Shown: in pieces, positions 559 to 14,399 of the stretch
How the letters are laid out: every line of letters begins with the position of its first letter
Numbering within the stretch: the stretch's first letter is position 1
From: Oscillospiraceae bacterium
GTDB taxonomy: Bacteria; Bacillota; Clostridia; Oscillospirales; Acutalibacteraceae
Reading direction: 5' to 3'
Length of the DNA: 64,000 nt
Assembly (NCBI GenBank): GCA_031280825.1
Contig: JAITGE010000006.1
Coordinates: 1 to 64,000, forward strand
Made by a program: the position numbers and the translations under genes
Notes under the pieces: generated by a model
The model's input: the letters and a program-made list of their open reading frames with translations, nothing else
Told to the model about the DNA's origin: nothing
The model's database searches: none

Positions 559-1653
559 ATGCTTCTAAAAGACTTGAACTCATCGAATAGCATAATAAAA
601 TCGCGCACTCTAAATTGTCTTGATGCAATTCTTGTTAGTCCAGCTATGAAGCAAAAATATTTCATATCAAAGTTTATTGGAGATAAATCATCGAGAAATG
701 TTCTTTACGTCCACACTCCCTTTTGTCCATCAAAATGCCTGTACTGCGATTGTTCATCATATGTACCAGCTGAAGCTGCTGAGATAAGTTTACATCTAAT
801 GGAAATACAAAATCAAATTATCGGATACCAAGGTATCTTTGATGAAGTGTCGTTTCAGCAGGTATATTTCGGTGGAGGTACTCCATCTATCTTAAATGTT
901 GAGCAACTTGAGTCATTGTTTAGCTACATCCCTAAATTCATTTCAATTCCGTTGAAATGTATTGAAGTATCCCCTACCACTGTGACAGATGAGCATTTAG
1001 AGTTGTTACAGAAATATCGTTTTTCGTTTATTTCAATGGGCGTTCAGTCTATTAATAGGTCTGAGTGTGCAAAATGGAATAGACCATATGTTAGTAGAAG
1101 CGAATTGCAAAATATTGCAGGGCACCTAATAAAATCAGAAATATATTTTAACATTGACCTTATATGTTTTCTGGATAAAGGAGATATCAGAGACCTTTAT
1201 GAGTTTGAAAAGAATTTGCGCTTTATACTAGCAGAATGCAATCCTTCATCAGTAACTATACATCAGCTGTATCAATCACACTTTACCATGGAAAGAACGT
1301 ACTCATTAATACAAGTATTACGTGACGTGTTGAATTGCCATAGTGATTATACGTGCGTAAATAGTCTTTTAGAAGATGGTGATCAATACTTTGACACTTT
1401 GCATCAAGCCGAATATAGATTAGCAACAAGAGATTTAGAATTTACGCATTATATGTGGAATAAGTTTGCTAGTATGCCTATAAAGGGTTATAATATACTA
1501 TCGTTAGGATATTCTAACCGGTTCCAGACTGTCTCAAATGCAGGCAACCTTTTATATCATCCAGGAAAAGACGCAATAAAGTTATTTAAGTATGATGATT
1601 TTATTGACAATGAATATTGTAGAATAAGAAAACAAAAAAGTCTTCCAATTTAA
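559..1653 (+). CDS. HemN/HemW-like radical SAM protein
   Basis: A 364-residue radical SAM enzyme. The 4Fe-4S binding motif CPSKCLYC (C56, C60, C63) is preceded by YVHTPF and followed by a GGGTPS motif (near residue 100), the layout of the coproporphyrinogen-oxidase-like HemN/HemW family. ATG 559 is preferred over TTG 538 because AAGAAAGGA lies six bases upstream. No heme genes are near; the next gene is a 35-residue Cys-rich peptide and two more radical SAM enzymes follow. The inferred role is a radical modification of that peptide, perhaps methylation or crosslinking, rather than porphyrin chemistry. HemN-like proteins in natural-product clusters have varied reactions, so the chemistry cannot be assigned. 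Confidence 0.85.
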   Translation: MLLKDLNSSNSIIKSRTLNCLDAILVSPAMKQKYFISKFIGDKSSRNVLYVHTPFCPSKCLYCDCSSYVPAEAAEISLHLMEIQNQIIGYQGIFDEVSFQQVYFGGGTPSILNVEQLESLFSYIPKFISIPLKCIEVSPTTVTDEHLELLQKYRFSFISMGVQSINRSECAKWNRPYVSRSELQNIAGHLIKSEIYFNIDLICFLDKGDIRDLYEFEKNLRFILAECNPSSVTIHQLYQSHFTMERTYSLIQVLRDVLNCHSDYTCVNSLLEDGDQYFDTLHQAEYRLATRDLEFTHYMWNKFASMPIKGYNILSLGYSNRFQTVSNAGNLLYHPGKDAIKLFKYDDFIDNEYCRIRKQKSLPI

Positions 1654-1718
1654 ATGAAAAGCTAAATAATCGGGTTATGCATGGAATTCAGGATATTTTA
1701 TAACAAGGAGGTGAGAAA

Positions 1719-1826
1719 ATGGATAAGTATGAAAAGGCCACATTCGAATATATCGAACTTATTCCGGATGAGGTCGTAGCATTGGGTTGTTGGAACTGTG
1801 GCGGATCTAGCGGCGGTAGTTGCTAA
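1719..1826 (+). CDS. RiPP precursor peptide, Cys-rich core
   Basis: A 35-residue peptide, too short for most gene callers, with a near-perfect ribosome site (AAGGAGGTG) six bases before ATG 1719. The N-terminal half is acidic and leader-like (FEYIELIPDEVVAL, residues 9-22). The C-terminal 13 residues, GCWNCGGSSGGSC, form a plausible core with Cys24, Cys27 and Cys35, one Trp, four Gly after Cys27 and three Ser. It lies between the HemN-like gene and the PqqD/SPASM radical SAM pair, the usual position of a precursor. Possible modifications are Cys thioethers (sactipeptide or ranthipeptide type), C-methylation by the B12 enzyme and Ser phosphorylation by the HprK-like protein. The cleavage site is not determined; the stretch before Gly23 is a guess. 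Confidence 0.85.
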   Translation: MDKYEKATFEYIELIPDEVVALGCWNCGGSSGGSC

Positions 1827-1898
1827 CATTTTCTAGCATTGGCCCCCACACTTAAACTATGAATTCTGTGCTTGCCATACTGGCGAAACCTGCAGTCG

Positions 1899-1938
1899 CA
1901 TCCCTGCTTTTGCGTTCATCTCCACAAAGGCAGGGATG
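1899..1938 (+). promoter_or_regulatory. Strong stem-loop between precursor and maturation genes
   Basis: CATCCCTGCTTTTG (1899-1912) pairs with CAAAGGCAGGGATG (1925-1938), 14 base pairs with one wobble and a 12-base loop. No T-run follows, so it is not a typical terminator. It lies after the precursor stop codon and before the PqqD start, where a partial terminator or an RNA 3'-end stabiliser would raise precursor output relative to the enzymes. That role is inferred. Confidence 0.6.
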
Positions 1939-1996
1939 TCAGACAAAATATCGTTTCAGCTATTCACAAATACTTATGCAGAAAGAAGAATTGATT

Positions 1997-2296
1997 ATGC
2001 TCAATAGTGAACTGGTTTTCAAAAAGCAAGATGGAATTGTAGTAACGCCACTGGATGACTGTTACTTGATTTTCCCCAATCACACAGATGAAACCAATAA
2101 GCCGTATCTATGTAAGGTCAATAAAACTGCTTATGCGATTTTTGAATATGTCGATGGAATTATGTCTGTCGCAGATATAATAGCGGTGATGATCAATCGA
2201 TATGACGAACAAAAGGCAGAAATAGAGGCGGATGTTTACGAAATTCTGGAGAATTTAGAGGACAAAAAAATAGTAAAGCGTCTTGCTAACAAATAG
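1997..2296 (+). CDS. PqqD-like peptide recognition protein
   Basis: A 99-residue protein of PqqD size. After an N-terminal strand region (LVFKKQDGIVVTPLDDCYLIF) comes VNKTAYAIFEYVDGIMSVADIIAVM, matching the family pattern of a hydroxyl or Asn-rich turn, aromatic helix and a short winged-helix-like segment. PqqD proteins bind the leader of a RiPP precursor and present it to a radical SAM enzyme. ATG 1997 is chosen; longer in-frame starts at 1859 and 1976 would add residues encoded by the stem-loop region and lack good ribosome sites. It is followed 53 bases later by a SPASM radical SAM gene, its expected partner. Confidence 0.8.
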   Translation: MLNSELVFKKQDGIVVTPLDDCYLIFPNHTDETNKPYLCKVNKTAYAIFEYVDGIMSVADIIAVMINRYDEQKAEIEADVYEILENLEDKKIVKRLANK

Positions 2297-2349: not shown

Positions 2350-3402
2350 ATGGATAACCAAGAATTTATTCAGTTTAAAGAAAATATGCTAGCTGCTGCT
2401 ACTAGTCATAACTATTTGGTGGCAGCAACAATTGAGTTAACCAATATCTGCAACTTTAAGTGCCATCATTGCTATTTAGGGGATAGAGAGCATAATACTT
2501 TAGATGTGGTTTTAGTGAAACGATTCCTTGATGAGTTAAAAGAACAGGGCTGCATAATGTTGCTTTTGACTGGAGGAGAACCCCTCTTGCATCCGCATTT
2601 CAAGGAAATATATATATATGCAAAGCAGAAAGGCTTTATTATTACTGTTTTTACAAACGGCTCGATGCTAAGTAAAGAATACATTGAGTTGTTTCTTTTG
2701 TATAAACCTTATTTGATTGAGGTAAGTCTATACGGGATTGATGTTGATTCATATGTTGCGTTCACAGGAGTTAAGGATTCATATTATAAAGTAAAAAGTT
2801 CCCTTAATCTCATGGCCGAAAATCATATCTCTTTTCGCTTGAAAACAATGTTAATGAAGCAAACGCTTCCATATATCCAAGGAATGGAGCAACTTGCCAA
2901 AATATATGATGTTCAATTCAGATGGGATAGTTATATCGTACCAACACTAAATGGAGACATCAATGTTTTGGAAAACCATTTACTTGACGAAGAAACAATT
3001 TGTACAGCCATATTGTCTAATAATGATTTGAGGACAATTGTAAAAAATAAGCTCGAAAGCACCGTATTGAATGATGAACAAGCAATACAAAGACTTTATT
3101 TTTGTGATGCTGGCAGGACAAATGTGTTTATAAGCTCAGACGCAAAAATGTCACTGTGCGTTATAGCAAGAGAGCCATTTTACGATCTAATAAAAGGTAC
3201 CATTAAAAATGGCAGGCAGGTTTTATATGAGTATTCAGAGCAACCGATGCCAGTTGATTATAAATGCAAGGGTTGTAAAAGAATTCAGTTTTGTAGATAT
3301 TGTCCATCTAAGTTTAAACTTGAATCCGGTTCAATCGCTCCTGTAGAACGGTATTGCAGAATAGCTGAAAGACTATATAATGCTTTGCAGGTGGAAATAT
3401 GA
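2350..3402 (+). CDS. Radical SAM/SPASM peptide maturase (PqqE-like)
   Basis: A 350-residue enzyme with a radical SAM core (CNFKCHHC, C34-C38-C41; TGGEP at 74-78) and a C-terminal SPASM-type region with C306, C309, C315, C318 and C336, plus a Cys near residue 257 (YFCDAG). SPASM domains hold auxiliary iron-sulfur clusters and are common in peptide maturases that form thioether or carbon-carbon bonds. ATG 2350 has GGGAGG upstream. Neighbours are the precursor and the PqqD-like protein, so it probably installs the main crosslink in the Cys-rich core. The next gene overlaps its stop, indicating translational coupling. Confidence 0.9.
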   Translation: MDNQEFIQFKENMLAAATSHNYLVAATIELTNICNFKCHHCYLGDREHNTLDVVLVKRFLDELKEQGCIMLLLTGGEPLLHPHFKEIYIYAKQKGFIITVFTNGSMLSKEYIELFLLYKPYLIEVSLYGIDVDSYVAFTGVKDSYYKVKSSLNLMAENHISFRLKTMLMKQTLPYIQGMEQLAKIYDVQFRWDSYIVPTLNGDINVLENHLLDEETICTAILSNNDLRTIVKNKLESTVLNDEQAIQRLYFCDAGRTNVFISSDAKMSLCVIAREPFYDLIKGTIKNGRQVLYEYSEQPMPVDYKCKGCKRIQFCRYCPSKFKLESGSIAPVERYCRIAERLYNALQVEI

Positions 3403-4298
3403 TAGTACAAAACTTTACAGTTTCCATTGGGGAAATTCTTATATCTTATCAATATGATAAAAGCATAATCGCAAAAGGCAACGAGCCGTTTGTTGCCTTT
3501 TTGACTCCACAATATATGCCTGACGGCAAGTCACATATAATGAATTACGTTTCTGTAGTAGATAAAATTCCGTCAGCAAACATTGATGTAGAAATGACTG
3601 CTTCAACAATCTACTGGAAAATGTGGACTGTCAGCTCTGGCTATCACATTGAATTTTTTAATAACGAAGGTCTGCTTACGAGTATTGTAAAAAGCAATAA
3701 CAATTTTACTGTTAACAAAATTATTATGTTGAGAGACATACTAAATTCAACCGTATTCTTGCCCTCCGATGTCCATGCTTTTTTGCTAATTGGTTACTTC
3801 GGTTTTCGTGACATTGGTTTATTTATTCACGGCTCTATGATTAGGTATCAAGATAAAGGAGTGATTTTTTCAGGGATTTCTGGTTCGGGAAAGAGTACAA
3901 TTTGTGCTCTAGCTTCAGAGTTTCTCAACCAAAAGATCATAACGGATGATAGAATTTTAGTGCGTTTTAATGATGGTGTTGAGTGTTATAGTACGCCATA
4001 TGACTGGAAAATAGAACGATGCAATAATATTAAAACTCACATGGGTTGTATTGTTTATTTAAAACACGGATCTTCTAACTGGATACGAAAACTGAGTTAT
4101 GATGAAAAAATGATGAAGCTCTTTTCGACAAATTTGCTGCCATTTTTTGTGCCAGAAGGAATGCTAAGAATAGCAAAAGCGTTCGACTTAATCGTAAATT
4201 CTGTACCTATTATCGAATACCATTTTAAACCAGATCGTAGTGCAATAGAGTATTTGTTATTATATTTAAGACAGAACACTTCTTGTTTCGGAGAATAA
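3399..4298 (+). CDS. HprK-like serine kinase domain protein
   Basis: A 299-residue protein whose C-terminal half carries the P-loop SGISGSGKST (residues 158-167) after IHGS, with an acidic pair (ITDDR, D183-D184) about 18 residues later. This is the signature of the HPr kinase/phosphorylase fold. The first 130 residues are not recognised and replace the usual HprK N-terminal domain. HprK-like proteins occur in lasso peptide and other RiPP clusters, and a few of them phosphorylate a Ser of the precursor. The core peptide here has three Ser near its C-terminus, so Ser phosphorylation is a reasonable but untested inference. The start codon overlaps the upstream stop. Confidence 0.75.
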   Translation: MIVQNFTVSIGEILISYQYDKSIIAKGNEPFVAFLTPQYMPDGKSHIMNYVSVVDKIPSANIDVEMTASTIYWKMWTVSSGYHIEFFNNEGLLTSIVKSNNNFTVNKIIMLRDILNSTVFLPSDVHAFLLIGYFGFRDIGLFIHGSMIRYQDKGVIFSGISGSGKSTICALASEFLNQKIITDDRILVRFNDGVECYSTPYDWKIERCNNIKTHMGCIVYLKHGSSNWIRKLSYDEKMMKLFSTNLLPFFVPEGMLRIAKAFDLIVNSVPIIEYHFKPDRSAIEYLLLYLRQNTSCFGE

Positions 4299-4300
4299 AA

Positions 4301-4738
4301 ATGAAAGTGACAATAGTTATCCCTCCTTACATTAATAAGGGCTACTATATGCCTGCGCTTGGCGTATATGTTTTAGCACGCAAATTGATGGATTTAGATA
4401 TAACCGTTAGGGTTGTAGACTACTCTTTTGACCTTATGACTGGGAAAATGATTGCTTCTTCTAGGATTTATAAGGAGTGTGCCAATGATATTTTAACTGA
4501 TAATCCTGATGCAATTTGCTTTTCTTGTAACTGTATGACAATTTTGCCAGCAATGCAGATATCGAAATTGATAAAACAGACTATGAATGTTCCAATTATT
4601 ATAGGAGGACCGATTGCCACAACAAGCGCAGATGAAATTCTAAAATATACTTGTGTTAATTATGTCATTGTGGGCGAAGGTGAAAACAGCCTACCAGAAC
4701 TAATATTGTCATTGCAAAAAAAAAAATTTGCAAAATAG
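4301..4738 (+). CDS. B12-binding N-terminal domain of a split cobalamin radical SAM enzyme
   Basis: 145 residues from ATG 4301 (GGAG upstream). It begins KVTIVIPPYINKGYYMPALG and runs through a Rossmann-like B12-binding pattern (NPDAICFSCNC, PIIIGGPIATTSADEIL, VIVGEGENSLPELI), exactly as in the N-terminal half of B12-binding radical SAM proteins. The frame ends at TAG 4736 just after an 11-A run. Removing one A joins it directly to the downstream frame in the expected order, giving LSLQKKNLQNRGIVLPD. The full protein would have about 587 residues. Either the gene is broken, the assembly has one extra A, or slippage yields the full protein. Confidence 0.8.
   Translation: MKVTIVIPPYINKGYYMPALGVYVLARKLMDLDITVRVVDYSFDLMTGKMIASSRIYKECANDILTDNPDAICFSCNCMTILPAMQISKLIKQTMNVPIIIGGPIATTSADEILKYTCVNYVIVGEGENSLPELILSLQKKKFAK
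4716..4726 (+). repeat. A11 homopolymer at the frame break
   Basis: Eleven consecutive A residues at the junction of the two halves of the B12 radical SAM gene. Runs of nine or more A are known sites of replication and RNA polymerase slippage. Loss of one A, or addition of two, restores a single reading frame. Confidence 0.9.
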
Positions 4739-6065
4739 GGGTATAGTTTTGCCTGATAATCAGATTAATTACTCAAGTTATAGCACCATTCCTGCATATG
4801 AATTAATGCCTTCCAAATCCGAAATCGAAAAAATAAATCGCGGGAAAGTTTTTATACCGTGTGAAGCTGGGCGTGGATGTTCTTTTAATTGCGCGTTTTG
4901 CTGCTCTAGTTCAATATGGAATAGACGTGTTGTGTTTTTTAACACAGATATCATTTTGAAGCAGTTAGATGAAATTAGGGCACGATACGGAGAAATAACT
5001 ATATATTTTACCTGCGACAATTTAATATATAATCATGATCTAATAGATTTTTTGTGTAAAGCCTTAAAAGGTAGAGAATTAAAATGGCAATGCAGAGGCA
5101 GGCTAGATATTGATTGTGACTATGAAAAACTATATAATTCTGGCTGTGAGATGATTATGGTTGGAATAGAATCAGCACAATCTAAAACATGGAAAAAAAT
5201 ACAGAAGGGTAGGTTCCCTGAAGATATTATAGCGAAAATATCTGATATTACAAACATAGGATTAGGTGTTACTGCTACTTATATTGTGGGGTTTCCTTTT
5301 GAAACAAGATTTGATGTATCGAACACATTATTACACGCCATAAGGGTATCAAGCAACCCAAATAGCGATGTGTCAGTTCACGCACTTACTCCTTTACCAA
5401 AAACTGCGATATATGATTCTTATCAGGATATACATTTCAATAATGGAACAGATTTAGTGCGAGGTCTGGAGTTTTCTGACGGCTTGCTTCCTATTGACGT
5501 TTCACTAATTAAGTCTGATGCAAACCTATTTCTTGGTTTCTATAGCTTTAACTGTGGAATAGATAATATTATTTCGATTGCAGAAACAGCAACAGCTCTG
5601 TGCAAGACATCGATTTTCACAAATGCTCTATTAGAATATTGCAAATTTACTATAGATGTCGTTTTTAATCTGTCAGAAGACTCATATGAGCAGGAAAAGT
5701 TGGAAAGAAAAATTATAACATTAATAGACACATGTGACTTCTTGAAAAACGAAGAAAAAATTGTTTTGCGCGAATTGTTTGAAATTGAAAGCTGTTTGAG
5801 AGGACTAAAACAACTAGACTTTGAGAAATTTGGTATGCCGCAACAATTCCATCTAGCAAGAGATGCTGGCTTTTTGGTTATACTGTGTTCATATAATTTC
5901 AGCAAAATATTTAATTCAAGATTATTTTCTTTTAGCATGAATATGTATGCTGGCGCAAACAGCTATGCTATTATTTTCAACCCAAGCAACAAAAAATATG
6001 TTCTTTTGAAAACAGGTACATCTATTGAAAACATTGTTTATTCAACTTATTTATTAAGGAAATAG
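4728..6065 (+). CDS. Radical SAM domain of a split cobalamin-dependent radical SAM enzyme
   Basis: 445 codons open from 4728; the first codon is only where the frame opens and no ribosome site supports an independent start. The motif CSFNCAFC (C51, C55, C58 counted from 4728) after CEAGRG binds the 4Fe-4S cluster. Downstream QCRGRLDIDCDYEKLYNSGCEMIMVGIESA and YIVGFPFET are typical of the BchE/B12-binding radical SAM group. Members methylate unactivated carbon or phosphorus or do other cobalamin chemistry. With the domain at 4301-4738 it forms one enzyme, likely the third maturase of the peptide. The last 200 residues are not recognised. Confidence 0.85.
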   Translation: MQNRGIVLPDNQINYSSYSTIPAYELMPSKSEIEKINRGKVFIPCEAGRGCSFNCAFCCSSSIWNRRVVFFNTDIILKQLDEIRARYGEITIYFTCDNLIYNHDLIDFLCKALKGRELKWQCRGRLDIDCDYEKLYNSGCEMIMVGIESAQSKTWKKIQKGRFPEDIIAKISDITNIGLGVTATYIVGFPFETRFDVSNTLLHAIRVSSNPNSDVSVHALTPLPKTAIYDSYQDIHFNNGTDLVRGLEFSDGLLPIDVSLIKSDANLFLGFYSFNCGIDNIISIAETATALCKTSIFTNALLEYCKFTIDVVFNLSEDSYEQEKLERKIITLIDTCDFLKNEEKIVLRELFEIESCLRGLKQLDFEKFGMPQQFHLARDAGFLVILCSYNFSKIFNSRLFSFSMNMYAGANSYAIIFNPSNKKYVLLKTGTSIENIVYSTYLLRK

Positions 6066-6069
6066 TTAT

Positions 6070-6522
6070 ATGAAAATGTTCCTATGTCAAGGTATAAGCA
6101 TGGACAAGTTAATAAGAGCTAATGATATCATTGTCGTGGATGAGTCTGTTTCTTTTAAGGCTTTTGATGTTATTGTTTTCTACTATAACGATGTTTTGTT
6201 CTGCCATAGATGTATGCTTAACTTTAAACATCGTGCAATTGAGTTTGGAGAGAACTCGAAATCACCAAAGTGGATTTCCAAGGAAAAGATGGTTGGCCGT
6301 TGTATTGGCATAATACGAGATCATGTATTTTACAAATGGGGGGATTTTTCTCGACAGTATTACGCTCTTCTTTGGATGATTCTTGTACTCAAAGTGTTAT
6401 TCTTTAAATTGCATCTAATATATGGAGGTCATTATGCGAAAATAATAAGCAAGTTAAATTCTCGCTTATGGATACATCAATGCAATTACCTGCTGCCTGA
6501 GCATTTTATGAAGTATGAATAA
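6070..6522 (+). CDS. S26 signal-peptidase-like protein with a His in place of the catalytic Lys
   Basis: A 150-residue protein. GISM (Ser10) matches the nucleophile box GxSM, FDVIVF the box-C strand, and CHRC (His46) the position where bacterial enzymes have Lys and archaeal/eukaryotic-type (S26B) enzymes have His. FGENSKSPKWISKEKMVGRCIG matches the GDNxxxSDSR..G region. Residues 103-122 form a probable C-terminal membrane segment. ATG 6070 has AAGGA upstream. The neighbouring exporters lack a C39 peptidase domain, so this protein is the best candidate leader protease of the cluster. That link is inference. Confidence 0.65.
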   Translation: MKMFLCQGISMDKLIRANDIIVVDESVSFKAFDVIVFYYNDVLFCHRCMLNFKHRAIEFGENSKSPKWISKEKMVGRCIGIIRDHVFYKWGDFSRQYYALLWMILVLKVLFFKLHLIYGGHYAKIISKLNSRLWIHQCNYLLPEHFMKYE

Positions 6523-6542: not shown

Positions 6543-8348
6543 ATGGAAAATGTCAAACGCGTAAAAATCATGCCGAATCTTTCTTACATGATTAAAAATT
6601 GGTATCGTTGGGATAAAAAAGGGATTGCTGTTTGCCTAATCCGAATTCCTGCTTTAATTGCTCTCCCTGCTATAACCGCTTTTATTCCGAAAATCATGAT
6701 AGACTATATACAAACTCAAGTTGAGATTAATAGATTTGTAATAACGGTTGCTTTCCTTTCAATCGTTGTTGCGTTGTTATCATGGATTGATCCTTATCTA
6801 CTGGAAATCGCACATTCGGTAGGGCAAAACATTCGTATGCGGTATAGGATATTGGCGTTTGATAAGATACTTAACATGGATTACGCAAATTTGGAAAGTT
6901 ATGAAGGTCGATTGAAATTTGAACGCGGAAAAGAATTTGCGTTTGGAGGGAGAAACTCTGGTAGCGAAAACTTTCTTTATACGTTACTAGACTTTTTCAC
7001 CGCCGTCCTAGGTGTATTTGCTTATATAGCTTTGCTTTCACAAATAGATTTTATTCTACTCTTAATTATCATTATGACTTGCGGGATAGAAACTTGCATA
7101 TCACAAGCCATAAATCAATTAGAACATAAACATAGGGACGAAGAGGTTGGCGGGTGGTATAAACTAGCTTATTTATTTCAAGTAGCAACAAATCCAAAGA
7201 GTGGCAAAGATATACGTATGTATAATGCAAAAGATTGGTTTATCCAATTAATGTTGCAGATTACATCGAGGCATCAAAAAATGATACAGTTACTCACAAA
7301 AAAAACAGTGCATTTGTCAGCATTTCAAGCACTTTGCTCGTTAGTGCGTGAACTCAGTGCTTATGGATTTTTAGTTGCAAAAGTTCTCTCTAATGGTATA
7401 GATGTTGCGAATTTTGTGTTTTATATTGGACTTGTTTTAGGTTTCTCCTCTTGGATTTCTGGAATATCAAATAAAATCATAGTGTTACAGAAAATATTTG
7501 AAAGTTGTGAGAAATTTCGTGCATTTTTGGAGATAGAGGATCGCGTTAAGAGTGTGGACGCTAGTTCTGCTCCCAGAATAATTGAGAATATTGAGTTTAA
7601 AAACATATTTTTCAGCTATGAGCAAGATGGAGCAAACGTATTAAAGGATGTTAGCTTTTCTGTTTCGGCTGGTGAGAAAATTGCAATAGTTGGCGAAAAT
7701 GGTGCTGGAAAAACTACAATGATTAAACTTCTCTGTGGCTTATATGCACCGACTTTGGGCGAAATTTGTATAAACGGTGTCAGAATGGATTCCATTGATC
7801 GTGAAAGCTATTTTGAGTTGTTTAGTGTTGTCTTTCAAGACTTTAATTTTTTGCCAGCGAGTATTGGCGTTAATATTTGTATTACTGAACATGAGGATAT
7901 CGACTATTTAAATCTTGAAAGCGTATTGGAGCAATCAGGTTTGCTGAACAAGATTCAATCCTTGCCAGCGGGAATTGAGAGCAAGCTTATAAGACAAATG
8001 GATTGTGAAGCTGTAGAACTATCAGGTGGAGAAAAACAGCGGCTATTATTGGCAAGAGCACTTTACAAAAATGCTCCTATCTTAATATTAGATGAACCAA
8101 CGGCAGCTCTAGATCCAATTGCGGAGAAACATATATATGATACGTATAACACCCTTACAAAAAATAAGACGGCTTTTTTTATCTCACATCGGCTAGCATC
8201 GACTCGCTTTTGTGACCGAATATTGTATATGAAAGATGGGCACATAACAGAAATTGGATCACACGATGATTTGCTCAATGCGAAAGGCGATTATTGGCGC
8301 ATGTTTCAAACGCAATGCGCTTACTATCACGAGGAGGTGGATCAGTAA
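6543..8348 (+). CDS. ABC transporter half (permease-ATPase), peptide exporter type
   Basis: 601 residues: a membrane domain with several hydrophobic segments in the first 320 residues, then an ATPase with Walker A GENGAGKT (near 384), signature LSGGEKQR (near 493) and Walker B ILILDEP (near 513). AGAGGTG precedes ATG 6543. There is no N-terminal C39 Cys-protease domain. It overlaps the next half-transporter by one base, and the two probably form a heterodimer exporting the modified peptide or giving self-immunity. Confidence 0.9.
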   Translation: MENVKRVKIMPNLSYMIKNWYRWDKKGIAVCLIRIPALIALPAITAFIPKIMIDYIQTQVEINRFVITVAFLSIVVALLSWIDPYLLEIAHSVGQNIRMRYRILAFDKILNMDYANLESYEGRLKFERGKEFAFGGRNSGSENFLYTLLDFFTAVLGVFAYIALLSQIDFILLLIIIMTCGIETCISQAINQLEHKHRDEEVGGWYKLAYLFQVATNPKSGKDIRMYNAKDWFIQLMLQITSRHQKMIQLLTKKTVHLSAFQALCSLVRELSAYGFLVAKVLSNGIDVANFVFYIGLVLGFSSWISGISNKIIVLQKIFESCEKFRAFLEIEDRVKSVDASSAPRIIENIEFKNIFFSYEQDGANVLKDVSFSVSAGEKIAIVGENGAGKTTMIKLLCGLYAPTLGEICINGVRMDSIDRESYFELFSVVFQDFNFLPASIGVNICITEHEDIDYLNLESVLEQSGLLNKIQSLPAGIESKLIRQMDCEAVELSGGEKQRLLLARALYKNAPILILDEPTAALDPIAEKHIYDTYNTLTKNKTAFFISHRLASTRFCDRILYMKDGHITEIGSHDDLLNAKGDYWRMFQTQCAYYHEEVDQ

Positions 8349-10153
8349 TGCATAAAAAAAATGTGATCGCACGAGGCTATCGTGAAATTTGGACTCTAAG
8401 AAAAAGCGCAATGCCACTTATGATATTCCAAAACTTTATTGGAGCTGTTATACCTTTTGTAAACATTTGGTTTCCTGCTCGAATAATTGATGTTCTTGGC
8501 GACACGAAGAATATTAAAGAGCTATCATTGTATATTGGAACTGCAGCATTTCTCAATGCCGTGTTTTTTTTGATAAATACATGGCTCAACCGAAAGAATG
8601 AAAGTGCAATTGACTTTTTTTGGGCGCATGAGCAAAATAGTGTTAGTCGAAAACTATATAAGATAAATTATCACCATTTAGAGGATGCTGAATTTTTTTC
8701 AAAGGTAGGTCGTCATGTAGATGATGTAAGAACAAGCATGGGAATATTTGCAACACTTACATCAATGCTTAAAACTTTTGTTTCGGTTGCAACGAGAATT
8801 GCAACTTCATTGTTTCTTGGTTTCCCCTTTTTTGTGTTCATGTTTCGACGCACTGGGACTAGTTTTTGGGAATCTCCTTGGTTAGCGTTAGTAATAGTTG
8901 TTGGAATAGGAATTTTTATTGCAGTCTTCTTTCCATTGACTAACGTGGTAAACAAGCGGAGCGTTGACATTCGTCGGCAGTATTTAGATATATATCATAT
9001 ATTTGGCTACTATTGCGACATGCTCTCAGATTATAAAAGCGGAAAAGAGATTAGACTGTTCAAGGAGCAAGACTTTATTACAAAGCACGCAACAAAAGAA
9101 ATGGTAGAGAAAGGCATAAGATTAGAAAAGCAAAGAGGTCGAATGCTTGCTTTCAATAATGGACTTATGACTTTTTCAATGTCGTTTGTTGGATTTGCCG
9201 TTTACCTAATCATTGGCTTGAAAGCTATGGCAGGCTTATATAGTATTGGTAGTATAGTTCTTTACATTGGCGCTTGCTTTCAGATTGTTAAGGCAATTTC
9301 TGATGGAGTAAGTGTCTTTGGACAACTTAACTCCATCAAACCCCGCATGCAGTTATACTATGAAATTCTTGATACGCCTAACCAGGACTCTATAGAAGGT
9401 GATGTGCCGGAAAGAAAAAGCTATGATATCAAGTGCGAAAATGTAAGCTTTCGTTATAAGGATGACTTGCCATTTGCCATTAAAAATATTAACTTGATAA
9501 TAAATCAAGGGGAGAAAATTGCGATTGTCGGAGAAAATGGATCAGGAAAAACTACGTTTGTCAAGTTATTGTGTCGTTTGTATCAAGTTACAAATGGTGA
9601 ATTTTTATTAGGAAACAAAAGTATTGCTTTTTATGATCAAGAAGAATATCGAAAATTATTTTCTGTTGTATTCCAAGACTATCAAATCTTTTCTCTTCCT
9701 TTAGGTGAAAATGTAGCAGCAACGCAGGATGTAGATCAAGCATTTGCTCTAGAGTGTTTGAAAAAAGCAGGGTTTGGGGATAGATATGGACTTGATCAAT
9801 ACATTTATAAGGATTGTGATAAAGACGGTATTGAAATATCCGGCGGCGAAAGCCAAAAGATCGCTTTGGCAAGAGCTCTCTATAAAGATGCTCCAATTAT
9901 TATACTTGATGAACCAACATCAGCTCTTGATCCGTTTGCAGAGGCTGAAATATATTCAAAAATTGATGAATTGACTCAAGACAAAACAGTTATATATATT
10001 TCTCACCGATTATCTTCATGTTGCTTTTGTGATAAAATAGCAGTTTTCGAAAATGGGCAAATTGTTCAGCACGGAACACATAAAGAACTGCTGAAAGACG
10101 AGAATGGTAAGTATTTTAAATTATGGAGTGCGCAAGCAAAGTATTATGCATAA
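8348..10153 (+). CDS. ABC transporter half (permease-ATPase), partner of the preceding gene
   Basis: 601 residues from ATG 8348, which overlaps the upstream stop and has GAGGAGGTG upstream. The membrane domain occupies about residues 20-330, followed by Walker A GENGSGKT (near 395), signature ISGGESQK (near 496) and Walker B IIILDEP. It is the same length as the preceding half-transporter and diverged from it, as usual for heterodimeric exporters. No protease domain is present. Confidence 0.9.
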   Translation: MHKKNVIARGYREIWTLRKSAMPLMIFQNFIGAVIPFVNIWFPARIIDVLGDTKNIKELSLYIGTAAFLNAVFFLINTWLNRKNESAIDFFWAHEQNSVSRKLYKINYHHLEDAEFFSKVGRHVDDVRTSMGIFATLTSMLKTFVSVATRIATSLFLGFPFFVFMFRRTGTSFWESPWLALVIVVGIGIFIAVFFPLTNVVNKRSVDIRRQYLDIYHIFGYYCDMLSDYKSGKEIRLFKEQDFITKHATKEMVEKGIRLEKQRGRMLAFNNGLMTFSMSFVGFAVYLIIGLKAMAGLYSIGSIVLYIGACFQIVKAISDGVSVFGQLNSIKPRMQLYYEILDTPNQDSIEGDVPERKSYDIKCENVSFRYKDDLPFAIKNINLIINQGEKIAIVGENGSGKTTFVKLLCRLYQVTNGEFLLGNKSIAFYDQEEYRKLFSVVFQDYQIFSLPLGENVAATQDVDQAFALECLKKAGFGDRYGLDQYIYKDCDKDGIEISGGESQKIALARALYKDAPIIILDEPTSALDPFAEAEIYSKIDELTQDKTVIYISHRLSSCCFCDKIAVFENGQIVQHGTHKELLKDENGKYFKLWSAQAKYYA

Positions 10154-10509
10154 ATCAATTGAAGTTTAGAAGATTATTCCGTATCTAATTTTCGATAACA
10201 ATGCGTTAGTTGGTTTTTACTATATCGAATAAAGGGTATAGTTGCACTTAGATGAACTTCAAATTGCCCAGTCGAAGCAAGGCGGCTTTATAATTTTTCC
10301 AACGCTATCAAACGCTATCAAACAAATTGTTGAACGACAAAAAACAGAAGGCACAACGGTTATTAGAAAAAATATTAAATTGTCTTGGTCTTGTAGTTGT
10401 TGGCGAAACCCTTCGCAGCGAAGTTGTCAATATAAAGGCAAAAAAACAGATGCCATTCAGTGGTACAATGCACGTAATTTACAGAAATGATGAAACTGGG
10501 GAGATGACT
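10154..10509 (+). pseudogene. Possible frameshifted 5' end of the nucleotidyltransferase gene
   Basis: A frame opens at TTG 10242 (AAAGGG upstream) and reads LHLDELQIAQSKQGGFII before it runs into an exact 10-bp tandem duplication at 10301-10320. Removing one copy joins this frame to the frame of the downstream nucleotidyltransferase without a stop codon, giving a gene of about 441 residues. This suggests the true gene starts at 10242 and carries a duplication frameshift. The alternative is that 10154-10509 is a leader region and translation begins at 10510. Nothing else is recognised in this gap. Confidence 0.4.
10301..10320 (+). repeat. 10-bp perfect tandem duplication
   Basis: AACGCTATCA occurs twice in direct succession. 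Ten is not a multiple of three, so gain or loss of a copy changes the reading frame. Confidence 0.9.
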
Positions 10510-11577
10510 ATGAATAAAGGAAACGCGGAAGTTTTGATTCACTATTGCGAAGACAAACTAATTCAAAACGAACATTTTAAAGAATATGTACTTAAGAATC
10601 CTTATTTCATATTACTTCAACTAAACGATGAGCTATTTGAAAATCAATTAAAGCGAGAGAAAAAAAGAATTGTACACGCGGCTCTATATCAAAAAAGACG
10701 AACAAATGAATTGATCATGGAATTTCGTCGTCTTCACTTACCCTCTGACCAAATTGTCGGGTTAAAAGGTTTTTTTCTCCAAGATACATATTGGCCCTCT
10801 AATCAAATCAGATTTTTTGGCGATATTGATTTGCTTGCATCCCAATCAGATTGTATTCCAATTCGTAAACACATCGTAAATTGTGGATATGGAGTTTCAG
10901 GCGTGCCTAAATGCCTAATAAGATTTCATTCTAAGAAAGGATATTTTCGTAAATACTTGCACTTGTCTCTTGAAAGAGATGGATTTTTGATTGAACTTCA
11001 CAGCAACTTAAATCATATTCATTGTGGATGCGGCCCTTCGTTTAATTGTGATCGCATGGTAGAAGAGTCAATAATTAAAACAAACGGCGACCAGAGCTAT
11101 CGTATTCTTTCTCCAATTGACAATATCTTGTTTCTTATGTATCACGCCATAAAACACCTAAGTTATGTAGAGCAAGAAAATGCGGTTCTGTCTATCAATT
11201 TGCAAAAATTCTATGATGTAGCGCAAGTAATTGACAATGAGGAAATTGATTGGGATCTGTTTGTTGAACGCACCATTGAATACAAGCTGTCGCCCTACGT
11301 AGTGCTGTTCCTCAGAATGTTTACTGATATTTTTCCAGATATTATCCCTCAGGGGGTATACGAAAAAGTCCTCCAGTCTGTCGATTCTGTTGACTTCCTG
11401 TGGAAAAATATTTTTTGCGAAGTAATAAAATTAAATCCAGCAGACTTAATCCTTGGAGATTACAGTTCTGTTCCACTTGTATTCGATGCATATACTCTCG
11501 CAAAATCTTGTTCTTCTAATTCTAAGAAGAGAAGAATATGGAAAAAATGCATCGAAAATTCTTTGAGAAGAGACTAA
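10510..11577 (+). CDS. NTP_transf_5-type nucleotidyltransferase family protein
   Basis: 355 residues from ATG 10510 (GGGGAG seven bases upstream). The segment LKGFF followed by IRFFGDIDLLASQSD is the nucleotidyltransferase motif with the GD(x)D metal-binding pair, typical of the uncharacterised nucleotidyltransferase family found in lasso and radical SAM peptide clusters. Further along, FLIELHSNLN and LMYHAIKHL match the conserved C-terminal part. The substrate is unknown. The frame is open upstream to beyond 10327, and part of the N-terminus may be lost through a frameshift. It is the last gene of the AT-rich cluster. Confidence 0.7.
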   Translation: MNKGNAEVLIHYCEDKLIQNEHFKEYVLKNPYFILLQLNDELFENQLKREKKRIVHAALYQKRRTNELIMEFRRLHLPSDQIVGLKGFFLQDTYWPSNQIRFFGDIDLLASQSDCIPIRKHIVNCGYGVSGVPKCLIRFHSKKGYFRKYLHLSLERDGFLIELHSNLNHIHCGCGPSFNCDRMVEESIIKTNGDQSYRILSPIDNILFLMYHAIKHLSYVEQENAVLSINLQKFYDVAQVIDNEEIDWDLFVERTIEYKLSPYVVLFLRMFTDIFPDIIPQGVYEKVLQSVDSVDFLWKNIFCEVIKLNPADLILGDYSSVPLVFDAYTLAKSCSSNSKKRRIWKKCIENSLRRD

Positions 11578-11595: not shown

Positions 11596-13380
11596 TTGGC
11601 GCGAGTATTATCTACTGCGTTGCATGCTATTTCTTTTGCAGCCGAGAGCCTTCTCGGCTTCATCAGCATCGTCCGCAACGGCAAACCAGGCAACAACGAC
11701 ATTGATGCTGTCTTCAGAAAAATCCATTTAGCCAAAACCGTATATGTGGTCAACCATCAAAACTTAACCCAAGAAGAATATGTAGTTCTAGTATTTCTAC
11801 AAGGATTAACCGCGAAAAAAGAAGCCGCCATTTATATAGATGACAGCATTGACACCTATGATATGCACCGTAAATACATCAAAGAATACCAAAAGCGTTA
11901 CGTTGATACGGGAAAATCAAATGTTACTTTTGATTACAGCATTCAAAATATGTGGACATTAGTTGAGATGTTCAAAGATAGCTTCGACAGCAAGTTTGTT
12001 ACATATGGGAGCTTCGAGGAAAGCGATCCCACGATCAATATGGCCGCGACAATTGCTGGCGTAGATTGTGTGCTTGGTATCCCTGCCGCGTTGCGTGACG
12101 AAGCCCTTGCGCATGGCTTGACGGAGGTTCGTGACCTTCGCACAATCAAGGGAGACTATATAGAAAAACAAAAGGCAATTTTTGAAGAGTATAAAGATAA
12201 ACTCAATAAACACCTTTTGATTCATGTGAATCCGCAGGATATTGGTGTACGCGATTTAGGTATCGCGAATGACTGTTTCCACTTTTTCACCCACGACAGA
12301 GAAAATTCGCCTCGCACCTTTCTCCCGGAGCGCGGTTTTCGGCATGAGGTTTATCGCTGGTCTGAATACAACGCGCTAATTTTAGGCTTCTGGGCTTGGG
12401 GCGATGAAATCGTTTTTCTTGACGATATGTCCCATTACGGAAAATCGTTTTTGCCACATTCCGGCAGGAACAACGGTACACTGCTGATGGCCTTGGAGGG
12501 CAAAGAAAAAGTCGCACAATCTTGGAGAGTAAATGATGCCGTTCCGAAGGCAAAAGCTGTCGAAGGGAAACACACCATTGCGTTCTACGTGACAGACGGG
12601 GATAATATCAGCGGCGGAGAAAAGGGCGGCGGCGTGTGCGCGCCCTATGAAACGATGCTGAAACAGCGCGCAACATCCGGCGACACCTTCAAAATGACCT
12701 ATTCTATTGCGCCTTTGTTGGGGAAACTCTCTCCCTTTACCGCCGAATATCTCTATGACAACGAAGATTCTTATGGCCTTGGGGAGTATGATTCCTATGT
12801 TGGCTGCACATCGGGCATGAGCATTATCAACGCTTCTTCCTATCCTAGGCGAACATTGAAAAGTTTTGCGAAAATGACCGCCGAAACAATGGATCGGATG
12901 GATATCCGCGTCATGACGCCGATTGATCAAATTTGGCATAATATGTTTTTCATATTTCGCACCAAAGACATTTGGGGTAAGTTCGCGAAATATGACAGCA
13001 TTAATGGCGGTATTTGGCAAATTGATGTGCCACGATATTATGTGGGGCGGGGCTTGGTTGTCTGGGCAAAAGGTAAGCCATGGGTTTCGGTTAGAACCGC
13101 TCTTTGGGGGCCTGATGATACACATAATTCAGTCACCCATGAATGGTTAGATAAAATCGCCGTCTCACTCAATCAACGCTGTACTAATCCGCATAAAATT
13201 GACGGTTATTCCGTAATCGGGATTCATCCCTGGTCAATCCATTACAGCGATATTCATTATTTGGTTTCGAAGTTGGACATGGATAAGGTGCAGCTTGTTT
13301 TTGGGGAGGAACTGATTGATATGGTGACAGAAAATGTGCCGCATCGGTTTGCTATTCCGAAGCGGGAGTTGGCGAACTGA
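11596..13380 (+). CDS. GxGYxYP-like domain protein
   Basis: 594 residues from TTG 11596 (GAAAGGGG upstream). KTVYVVNHQNLTQEEYVVLVFLQGLTAKKEAAIYID resembles the N-terminal domain of GxGYxYP proteins, and FYVTDGDNISGG the DGDN motif of their C-terminal domain, a family suspected of glycan hydrolysis. The hallmark itself is altered: GCTSGMSIINASSYP aligns with the region that should read SGxGYxYP. No clear signal peptide is seen. Its first 400 bases are AT-richer than the rest, so it spans the composition step between the island and the chromosome. Assignment is moderate. Confidence 0.55.
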   Translation: MARVLSTALHAISFAAESLLGFISIVRNGKPGNNDIDAVFRKIHLAKTVYVVNHQNLTQEEYVVLVFLQGLTAKKEAAIYIDDSIDTYDMHRKYIKEYQKRYVDTGKSNVTFDYSIQNMWTLVEMFKDSFDSKFVTYGSFEESDPTINMAATIAGVDCVLGIPAALRDEALAHGLTEVRDLRTIKGDYIEKQKAIFEEYKDKLNKHLLIHVNPQDIGVRDLGIANDCFHFFTHDRENSPRTFLPERGFRHEVYRWSEYNALILGFWAWGDEIVFLDDMSHYGKSFLPHSGRNNGTLLMALEGKEKVAQSWRVNDAVPKAKAVEGKHTIAFYVTDGDNISGGEKGGGVCAPYETMLKQRATSGDTFKMTYSIAPLLGKLSPFTAEYLYDNEDSYGLGEYDSYVGCTSGMSIINASSYPRRTLKSFAKMTAETMDRMDIRVMTPIDQIWHNMFFIFRTKDIWGKFAKYDSINGGIWQIDVPRYYVGRGLVVWAKGKPWVSVRTALWGPDDTHNSVTHEWLDKIAVSLNQRCTNPHKIDGYSVIGIHPWSIHYSDIHYLVSKLDMDKVQLVFGEELIDMVTENVPHRFAIPKRELAN

Positions 13381-13388
13381 TAAAGCAA

Positions 13389-13420
13389 GGCCCCAGCAAT
13401 TGCAGGGGCATAATTTTATT
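13389..13420. terminator. Bidirectional terminator between convergent genes
   Basis: GCCCC (13390-13394) pairs with GGGGC (13405-13409), with a self-complementary GCAATTGC inside the loop. T-rich sequence follows on the plus strand. It lies between the GxGYxYP-like gene and the convergent DUF262 gene. Confidence 0.6.
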
Positions 13421-14399
13421 TCTTGGCCTTTCTCCCCAGCACGGCATCCTCCATAATCGTAACTCTCGTCTGCACATTCCCCCGCTTCGCGCTGCCGGAT
13501 TTGCAAGCTGCCATATATTCTCCATTCTCATCCAAGCCTTCAAAGAAAGCATCCAGCCTTGCGGCAAATTCGTCGCAGGGCATTTCTTTTTCACGGGCTT
13601 GCTTCGCAACCAGTAGCACCATGGGCAGATGAACCAACTTCAGATATTGGCGCTTTTCCTCAATTGCGGCATCTAAATAATCAAGCACAGCTTGAATATG
13701 GCCTTCCTCCAACTTCTCTTCGCTATTCTTGATATCGTCACAGAAGCTCATGATTTCAGTGCCAGAAAAGCCCATGCTGACCCGCTTGCACAAAATCAAA
13801 TATTGCAGCAGAATGCGTAGATCATCATGCTTGCGGCGGGCAGGCGCGGTCAGTTTAATTTTGGTCTGCATGAAGTTATGTTCGCAAAGCCGCGCGAAAG
13901 CGTCCATGGCCTCCTCGCCCAGCATAACCAGCGACAAGTCTATTTTGGAAAGAGCCACGGCCTGGTTGCGCATAAAGAACACCGTGGCGCGCTCCTCGGC
14001 ATCCAACGAGCGTAGGATGGAGATGGACAACTCGTACTCTAGAATCTGATTCTGCAACGCTTCGGGCAGCATAGAGAATTTTAATCCTGCCAACGACTGC
14101 CCATCTAATGCCTTCACGCGAATCTTCGGCGAGAACGCGAATTCATCCGAAACGAACGCGCACAGCGTGAGTGTGCGCTGCTTGCCATCCAGCACGTTGT
14201 GGCTTTCACCTTCCGCTTCCTCGAACAACAGGCTTTCAATCGGAATATCAAGCAGAAGCGAAACGATGAGGTTGCTTTTCTTCTCAGCGTCCCACACCTC
14301 TTTGCGCTGGATGGAGATGTTCTTGTTAAGCTTGCCCTCTGCGTCTTGCCGCTTGAGCCAGCTGACGGTGTGTTTCTCCAGATTGCTCTTGATGGCCAT
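13416..14399 (-). CDS. DUF262 domain protein
   Basis: 327 residues. ISIQRKEVWDAEKKSNLIVSLLLDIPIESLLF followed by NVLDGKQRTLTL is the DUF262 signature, including the DGKQR motif (DGQQR in most members). DUF262 is a ParB-like nuclease or NTPase domain, best known from the N-terminal half of GmrSD type IV restriction enzymes and from stand-alone accessory proteins. The DUF1524 HNH half is absent. AAAGGGAGAA precedes the ATG. It borders a zone of gene debris and may be a remnant of a defence locus. Confidence 0.8.
   Translation of the reverse strand: MAIKSNLEKHTVSWLKRQDAEGKLNKNISIQRKEVWDAEKKSNLIVSLLLDIPIESLLFEEAEGESHNVLDGKQRTLTLCAFVSDEFAFSPKIRVKALDGQSLAGLKFSMLPEALQNQILEYELSISILRSLDAEERATVFFMRNQAVALSKIDLSLVMLGEEAMDAFARLCEHNFMQTKIKLTAPARRKHDDLRILLQYLILCKRVSMGFSGTEIMSFCDDIKNSEEKLEEGHIQAVLDYLDAAIEEKRQYLKLVHLPMVLLVAKQAREKEMPCDEFAARLDAFFEGLDENGEYMAACKSGSAKRGNVQTRVTIMEDAVLGRKAKK

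Follow-up and report, generated by a model that had tools for sequence, protein, structure and literature searches.

A short cysteine-rich frame in an Oscillospiraceae radical SAM–HprK cluster, best read as a RiPP precursor gene

In the 64-kb window analysed here (64,000 nucleotides of an Oscillospiraceae bacterium, starting at contig base 1), a short open reading frame on the + strand, with its ATG at 1719 and a TAA ending at 1826, is a real gene that is best read as encoding a RiPP precursor. The translated product, MDKYEKATFEYIELIPDEVVALGCWNCGGSSGGSC (35 aa), counts six acidic and two basic residues among its first 22, its last Asp or Glu lies no later than residue 18, and the predicted core is free of charged residues, Asp and Glu included. 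The initial annotation had described just such a passage from an acidic leader to a Cys-rich core, with cysteines at 24, 27 and 35 and a tryptophan at 25, and translation bore out both the shift and the positions. It had also ranked the ribosome site among the best, as our counts confirmed: the stretch aacAAGGAGGTGAgaaaATG matches the anti-SD complement over 10 bases, and AAGGAGGTGA occurs a single time in the 64 kb on either strand, namely at this precursor. Matches of at least 8 bases were found at two of the window's 1,436 start codons of 30–80-codon frames, the second being 8 bases long. No Pfam or NCBIfam model matched the frame, and none covers any of the ten precursors tried.

The frame is flanked by a HemN-like radical SAM gene on its 5′ side and, on its 3′ side, an operon for PqqD, SPASM, HprK, B12-radical-SAM, S24/S26, two ABC and NTP-transferase proteins, with all cluster genes on the + strand (Table 1). 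The HemN-like protein is a possible class C methylase, and the S24/S26-type protein is a candidate leader peptidase. The gene for the B12-radical SAM enzyme is split between two frames at an A11 run (about 4716–4726), for which assembly error, true mutation, phase variation and transcriptional slippage are all conceivable causes. The hairpin downstream of the precursor is a possible mRNA stabiliser or attenuator; no comparable long hairpin is evident just 3′ of the homologous precursor described below. At the far end of the cluster, the NTP-transferase gene shows no clear start in its N-terminal part (10242–10510), and its first 100 residues are without any match. Directly downstream (11596–14399), a putative glycoside hydrolase gene of the GxGYxYP type and, on the opposite strand, a gene for a GmrSD_N (DUF262-like) protein probably lie outside the cluster.

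Table 1 Coordinates of the precursor, its neighbouring genes and related peptides (positions in the window unless a locus is given)
Feature	Position	Strand	Remarks
HemN-like radical SAM protein	559–1653	+	CPSKCLYC motif
Ribosome-binding site AAGGAGGTGA	1705–1714	+	10-base match to anti-SD complement; unique in window
Precursor peptide gene, 35 aa	1719–1826	+	leader about residues 1–23; predicted core from Cys24 (CWNCGGSSGGSC)
Hairpin between precursor and PqqD genes	1897–1938	+	−28.6 kcal/mol, z −4.8; no U tract
PqqD-type RiPP recognition element	1970–2296	+	Pfam PqqD 41.7 bits; TIGR03859 42.6 bits, cut-off 46; exact start uncertain
Radical SAM/SPASM peptide maturase	2350–3402	+	CNFKCHHC and seven conserved C-terminal Cys
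HprK-like kinase	3399–4298	+	P-loop SGISGSGKST; altered loop STPYDWK
B12-binding half of B12-dependent radical SAM enzyme	4301–4738	+	Pfam B12-binding 55.8 bits; ApyD model 63.6 bits; frame stops after A11 run
Radical SAM half of B12-dependent enzyme, other frame	4728–6065	+	ApyD model 100 bits
S24/S26-type serine peptidase	6070–6522	+	ISM and CHR motifs; weak Pfam Peptidase_S24, E 0.002; weak signal peptidase I match
MsbA-like ABC exporter 1	6543–8348	+	
ABC exporter 2	8348–10153	+	
NTP_transf_5 nucleotidyltransferase-like protein	10327–11577	+	Pfam 88.6 bits; start uncertain
GCK...C...C...GS precursors beside same SPASM and kinase genes	L143:2982–3161, L144:1631–1810, L146:9060–9233, L147:9061–9243, L149:9001–9192		

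Using an alignment of SPASM enzymes (four rows, a 17-row set being too diverse), we scanned genomes of about 85,000 species and obtained 80 loci, the best of which (L142, Lachnospiraceae isolate B63) encodes a related peptide, MKRKFVMPKIQYVQLIPEEVVARGCWSCSANGMNFC, at 5810–5920, upstream of a PqqD gene (7705–7989). The same locus, broken up by transposase-like genes, holds a SPASM gene (7971–9023; product 36% identical to the window SPASM), an HprK gene (9831–10691) and an NTP_transf_5 gene (3352–4524). Common to the two peptides are the motif LIPxEVVAxGCWxC and a C-x2-C-x7-C spacing that runs to the C-terminal Cys. Searched with tblastn within the loci, the window precursor matched the L142 frame at E 9e-7; none of 20,000 shuffles reached the score of the pair, and none of 4,000 did so for the leader alone. 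The tBLASTn check put forward at the outset, which looked for an ELIPDE-like leader kept ahead of a variable core beside the same enzymes, was answered positively by L142, whose LIPEEVVARGCWSC stands beside PqqD, SPASM-radical-SAM, HprK and NTP-transferase homologues. The opposite outcome, a frame conserved nowhere among related clusters, was not seen; close relatives are very rare, L142 being the one close homologue. When a profile of the two precursors was run against the L142 family (299 genomes) and the window's order (295 genomes), just these two scored above chance, and a precursor search in sampled genomes of the window's family returned, besides itself, chance matches only. With its short reading frame, conserved leader and variable core next to an RRE and tailoring enzymes, the gene has the features by which RiPP precursors are recognised.

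More distant relatives were found in L147 (Deltaproteobacteria), L144 (Candidatus Tritonobacter) and L149 (Lentisphaerae), where peptides of the form Yx[KP]P...[DE]EVL[AG]xGCK..C..C..GS are encoded 3′ of the SPASM gene and 5′ of the kinase gene; their scores were reached by none of 4,000 shuffles for L147, none of 4,000 for L144 and two of 4,000 for L149. Two Aminicenantes loci (L143, L146) carry looser forms with GIGCK. The L144 order—PqqD, SPASM, precursor, HprK, S24/S26, ABC, NTP-transferase—is that of the window minus the HemN-like and B12 genes, except for the place of the precursor. A small-x-Gly block precedes Cys24 or its equivalent (ALG in the window, ARG in L142, GIG in L143, L144 and L146, AVG in L147, GTG in L149). 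Aligned with the L144 and L147 peptidases, the window peptidase gave no significant score (the L147 stretch used for this was out of frame), so that the link between these proteins rests on motifs and gene position. Queries with the B12 and HemN-like proteins in the window's family and class returned distant enzymes only; scanning viral contigs with single proteins gave nothing, and a plasmid search was empty.

HprK-like kinases are present in 96 of 300 genomes of the host's family, and small frames beside many of them share the leader [YF]xxPx[FLIM]E[VI]xx[FL]xx[ED][DE]V[IV]. With a leader profile built from 17 kinase-linked precursors of this family (the window sequence left out), the window precursor ranked first among the window's small frames (2,167 in the set), and an equal or better score came up 123 times when its leader was shuffled 50,000 times. 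Because the training leaders had been picked by eye, this match is supporting, not decisive, and weighs less than L142. A stricter profile made from YxxP leaders alone missed the window precursor, because Ala stands where Pro would be.

The likeliest modifier of the core is the SPASM enzyme, which has a CX3CX2C motif and conserved C-terminal cysteines, the SPASM cysteines being invariant. AlbA and SkfB are enzymes that form Cys-to-alpha-carbon thioethers; AlbA is the nearest curated model (73 bits; cut-off 850) and SkfB the nearest PDB match of the SPASM profile (117.6 bits). An AlphaFold model of the enzyme (pLDDT 83) matched the folds of SuiB (top), CteB, anSME, PqqE and SkfB, which supports peptide modification without distinguishing a thioether from a C–C bond. 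Neither the HemN-like nor the B12 radical SAM gene has a match near L142, and the B12 gene has none in the L142 genome either; since C24, W25, C27 and C35 are nevertheless common to both peptides, these residues are the expected SPASM targets. Cysteine thioethers would fit the conserved cysteines and the SPASM enzyme and are, judged from sequence, the likeliest chemistry and our first choice. A SPASM radical SAM maturase and core cysteines, the marks of a sactipeptide system, are both present, the alpha-carbon bond being inferred at most. PapB-type Cys–Asp/Glu links are unlikely because the core has neither acid.

The chief rival keeps the precursor and changes the bond: the SPASM enzyme would join Trp25 to Cys27, or to a neighbour, through carbon, giving a three-residue W-x-C cyclophane. 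W-x-C is found in both close members, and SuiB (Lys–Trp) is the top fold match, but the L144, L147 and L149 precursors have no Trp and yet keep the GC cysteine and a later one, and on the SPASM enzyme the AlbA and PapB models outscore those of cyclophane/dynobactin type. We hold such a ring to be unlikely; Trp25 stays a possible modification target because the tryptophan is shared by both close members.

What was observed directly is the frame with its homologues, the surrounding genes and the families of the enzymes they encode; from this we infer a pathway to a radical-SAM-modified RiPP that, taken as a whole, we consider probable. The PqqD protein would bind the leader around YEKATF, a version of the lasso/LPP-like [Y/W]xxPx[L/V/I/F] motif in which Ala takes the place of Pro, and present the core to the SPASM enzyme, which would most likely use Cys24, Cys27 and Cys35 to form between one and three thioether cross-links. 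The HemN-like and B12 radical SAM enzymes may add carbon-methyl-type changes peculiar to the window cluster, while the HprK-like kinase and the NTP-transferase would add phosphate and possibly a sugar. The S24/S26 peptidase would cut at the small-x-Gly block, between A21-L22-G23 and C24, to give the 12-mer CWNCGGSSGGSC, whose calculated [M+H]+ in linear form is 1117.350, or a product near it; small-x-Gly ahead of Cys24 fits a signal-peptidase-like cut. The 12-mer product, with any bioactivity it might have, would be exported by the ABC proteins. Counted against this explanation are the single close homologue known (L142), the AlbA score far below its cut-off, the weak peptidase match, the frameshift in the B12 gene and the lack of any Ser/Thr (hydroxyl) position common to the window and L142 cores.

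We compared 133 HprK-like kinases (some of them duplicates, fetched loci L067–L221 included), in which a G-x-P-x-x-G loop is nearly universal; both of its glycines are gone in the window and L142 kinases alone. The C-terminal residue of the window and L142 peptides is Cys, and Ser stands at the end of 16 of the 27 mechanically selected Cys-rich kinase-linked frames, as it also does in L143, L144, L146 and L147. One could imagine, though we give the idea little credence, that these two kinases switched substrate to the C-terminal Cys (thiol or carboxylate) instead of a C-terminal Ser, tied to the loss of the loop. That the two cores have no Ser/Thr position in common would fit such a switch. 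Because the window and L142 form one lineage, the Ser-to-Cys tail and the loop loss amount to a single evolutionary event. Were the switch real, the pathway would end in a radical-SAM-cross-linked peptide whose C-terminal Cys is phosphorylated or phosphate-activated, and we know of no precedent for such a product. The roles proposed above for kinase, NTP-transferase and peptidase are modelled on known pathways: the C-terminal Ser of paeninodin and pseudomycoidin receives its phosphate from an HprK-type kinase, and hexose addition to pseudomycoidin needs an NTP-transferase homologue (PMC9266682); in LPP, the kinase target is core Ser3 (PMC13381572).

These parallels raise the reading that the precursor belongs to the LPP or lasso peptides and that its cysteines stay unmodified, which we regard as very unlikely. 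Of the core set of LPP (lpp cluster, P. alginolyticus; PMC13381572), the discrete RRE, the HprK-like kinase, the NTP-transferase and the MsbA-like exporter have counterparts in the window cluster, together with a YxxP-like leader region, and the window leader resembles same-family kinase-linked leaders. The remaining member, a SpI-type leader peptidase (archaeal-type signal peptidase I), may have its counterpart in the S24/S26-type protein, which gives weak S24/S26 matches below cut-offs and has the ISM...CHR motifs. Of the LPP leader motif YxxPxVLxHQxIxFETxxS (PMC13381572), however, the window leader YEKATFEYIELIPDEVVALG lacks the Pro at that place, the HQ, the FET and the Ser, and the window differs in its three radical SAM enzymes, a family not mentioned in the main text of that paper, and in its Cys-rich 35-aa precursor. 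With the paeninodin/pseudomycoidin lasso systems (PMC9266682) it shares RRE, HprK-type kinase and NTP-transferase, but its core has no Asp or Glu to form the lasso ring and ends in Cys, not Ser, and neither a macrolactam synthetase nor a B2 protease was found among the cluster genes scanned. Most improbable is a chance frame or small non-RiPP protein, to which the mere 35 codons, the lack of Pfam/NCBIfam matches and the absence from sampled family genomes might point: it is largely refuted by L142, where the same enzymes adjoin a homologue whose Cys spacing is identical, and the strong ribosome site, unique in the window, also speaks against it.

The radical-SAM-modified precursor that we favour departs from known radical SAM RiPPs as well. 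Like the sactipeptides (subtilosin AlbA, SkfB), the system combines a radical SAM/SPASM maturase with a Cys-rich core, but it has a separate PqqD, a kinase and an NTP-transferase and falls far short of the cut-offs of the AlbA and SkfB models; the window peptide is not a proven sactipeptide, and its alpha-carbon link is at most suggested by the sequence. Similarity of the SPASM enzyme to PapB of the ranthipeptides is weak (53.6 bits; cut-off 340), and the Asp/Glu acceptor to which Cys is linked in PapB-type cores (PMC9413430) is missing from the window core. The B12-radical SAM enzyme resembles ApyD, the Tyr beta-carbon methylase of the Apy peptides (PMC10635010), but the P450 and MNIO of that pathway were not found in the window cluster, and the core has no Tyr. 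A literature search of incomplete coverage found no paper joining HprK, radical SAM and RiPP, and we file the window system as a variant of radical SAM RiPPs that is described by none of the family models or papers found. An unnamed radical-SAM RiPP operon, present in Bacillota and several distant lineages, would thereby gain a precursor whose core is short and testable; its leader/core border and its Ser-to-Cys tail with the altered kinase yield specific predictions, and the cluster ties radical SAM cross-linking to the kinase/NTP-transferase pathway known from phosphorylated peptides of the lasso and linear kinds.
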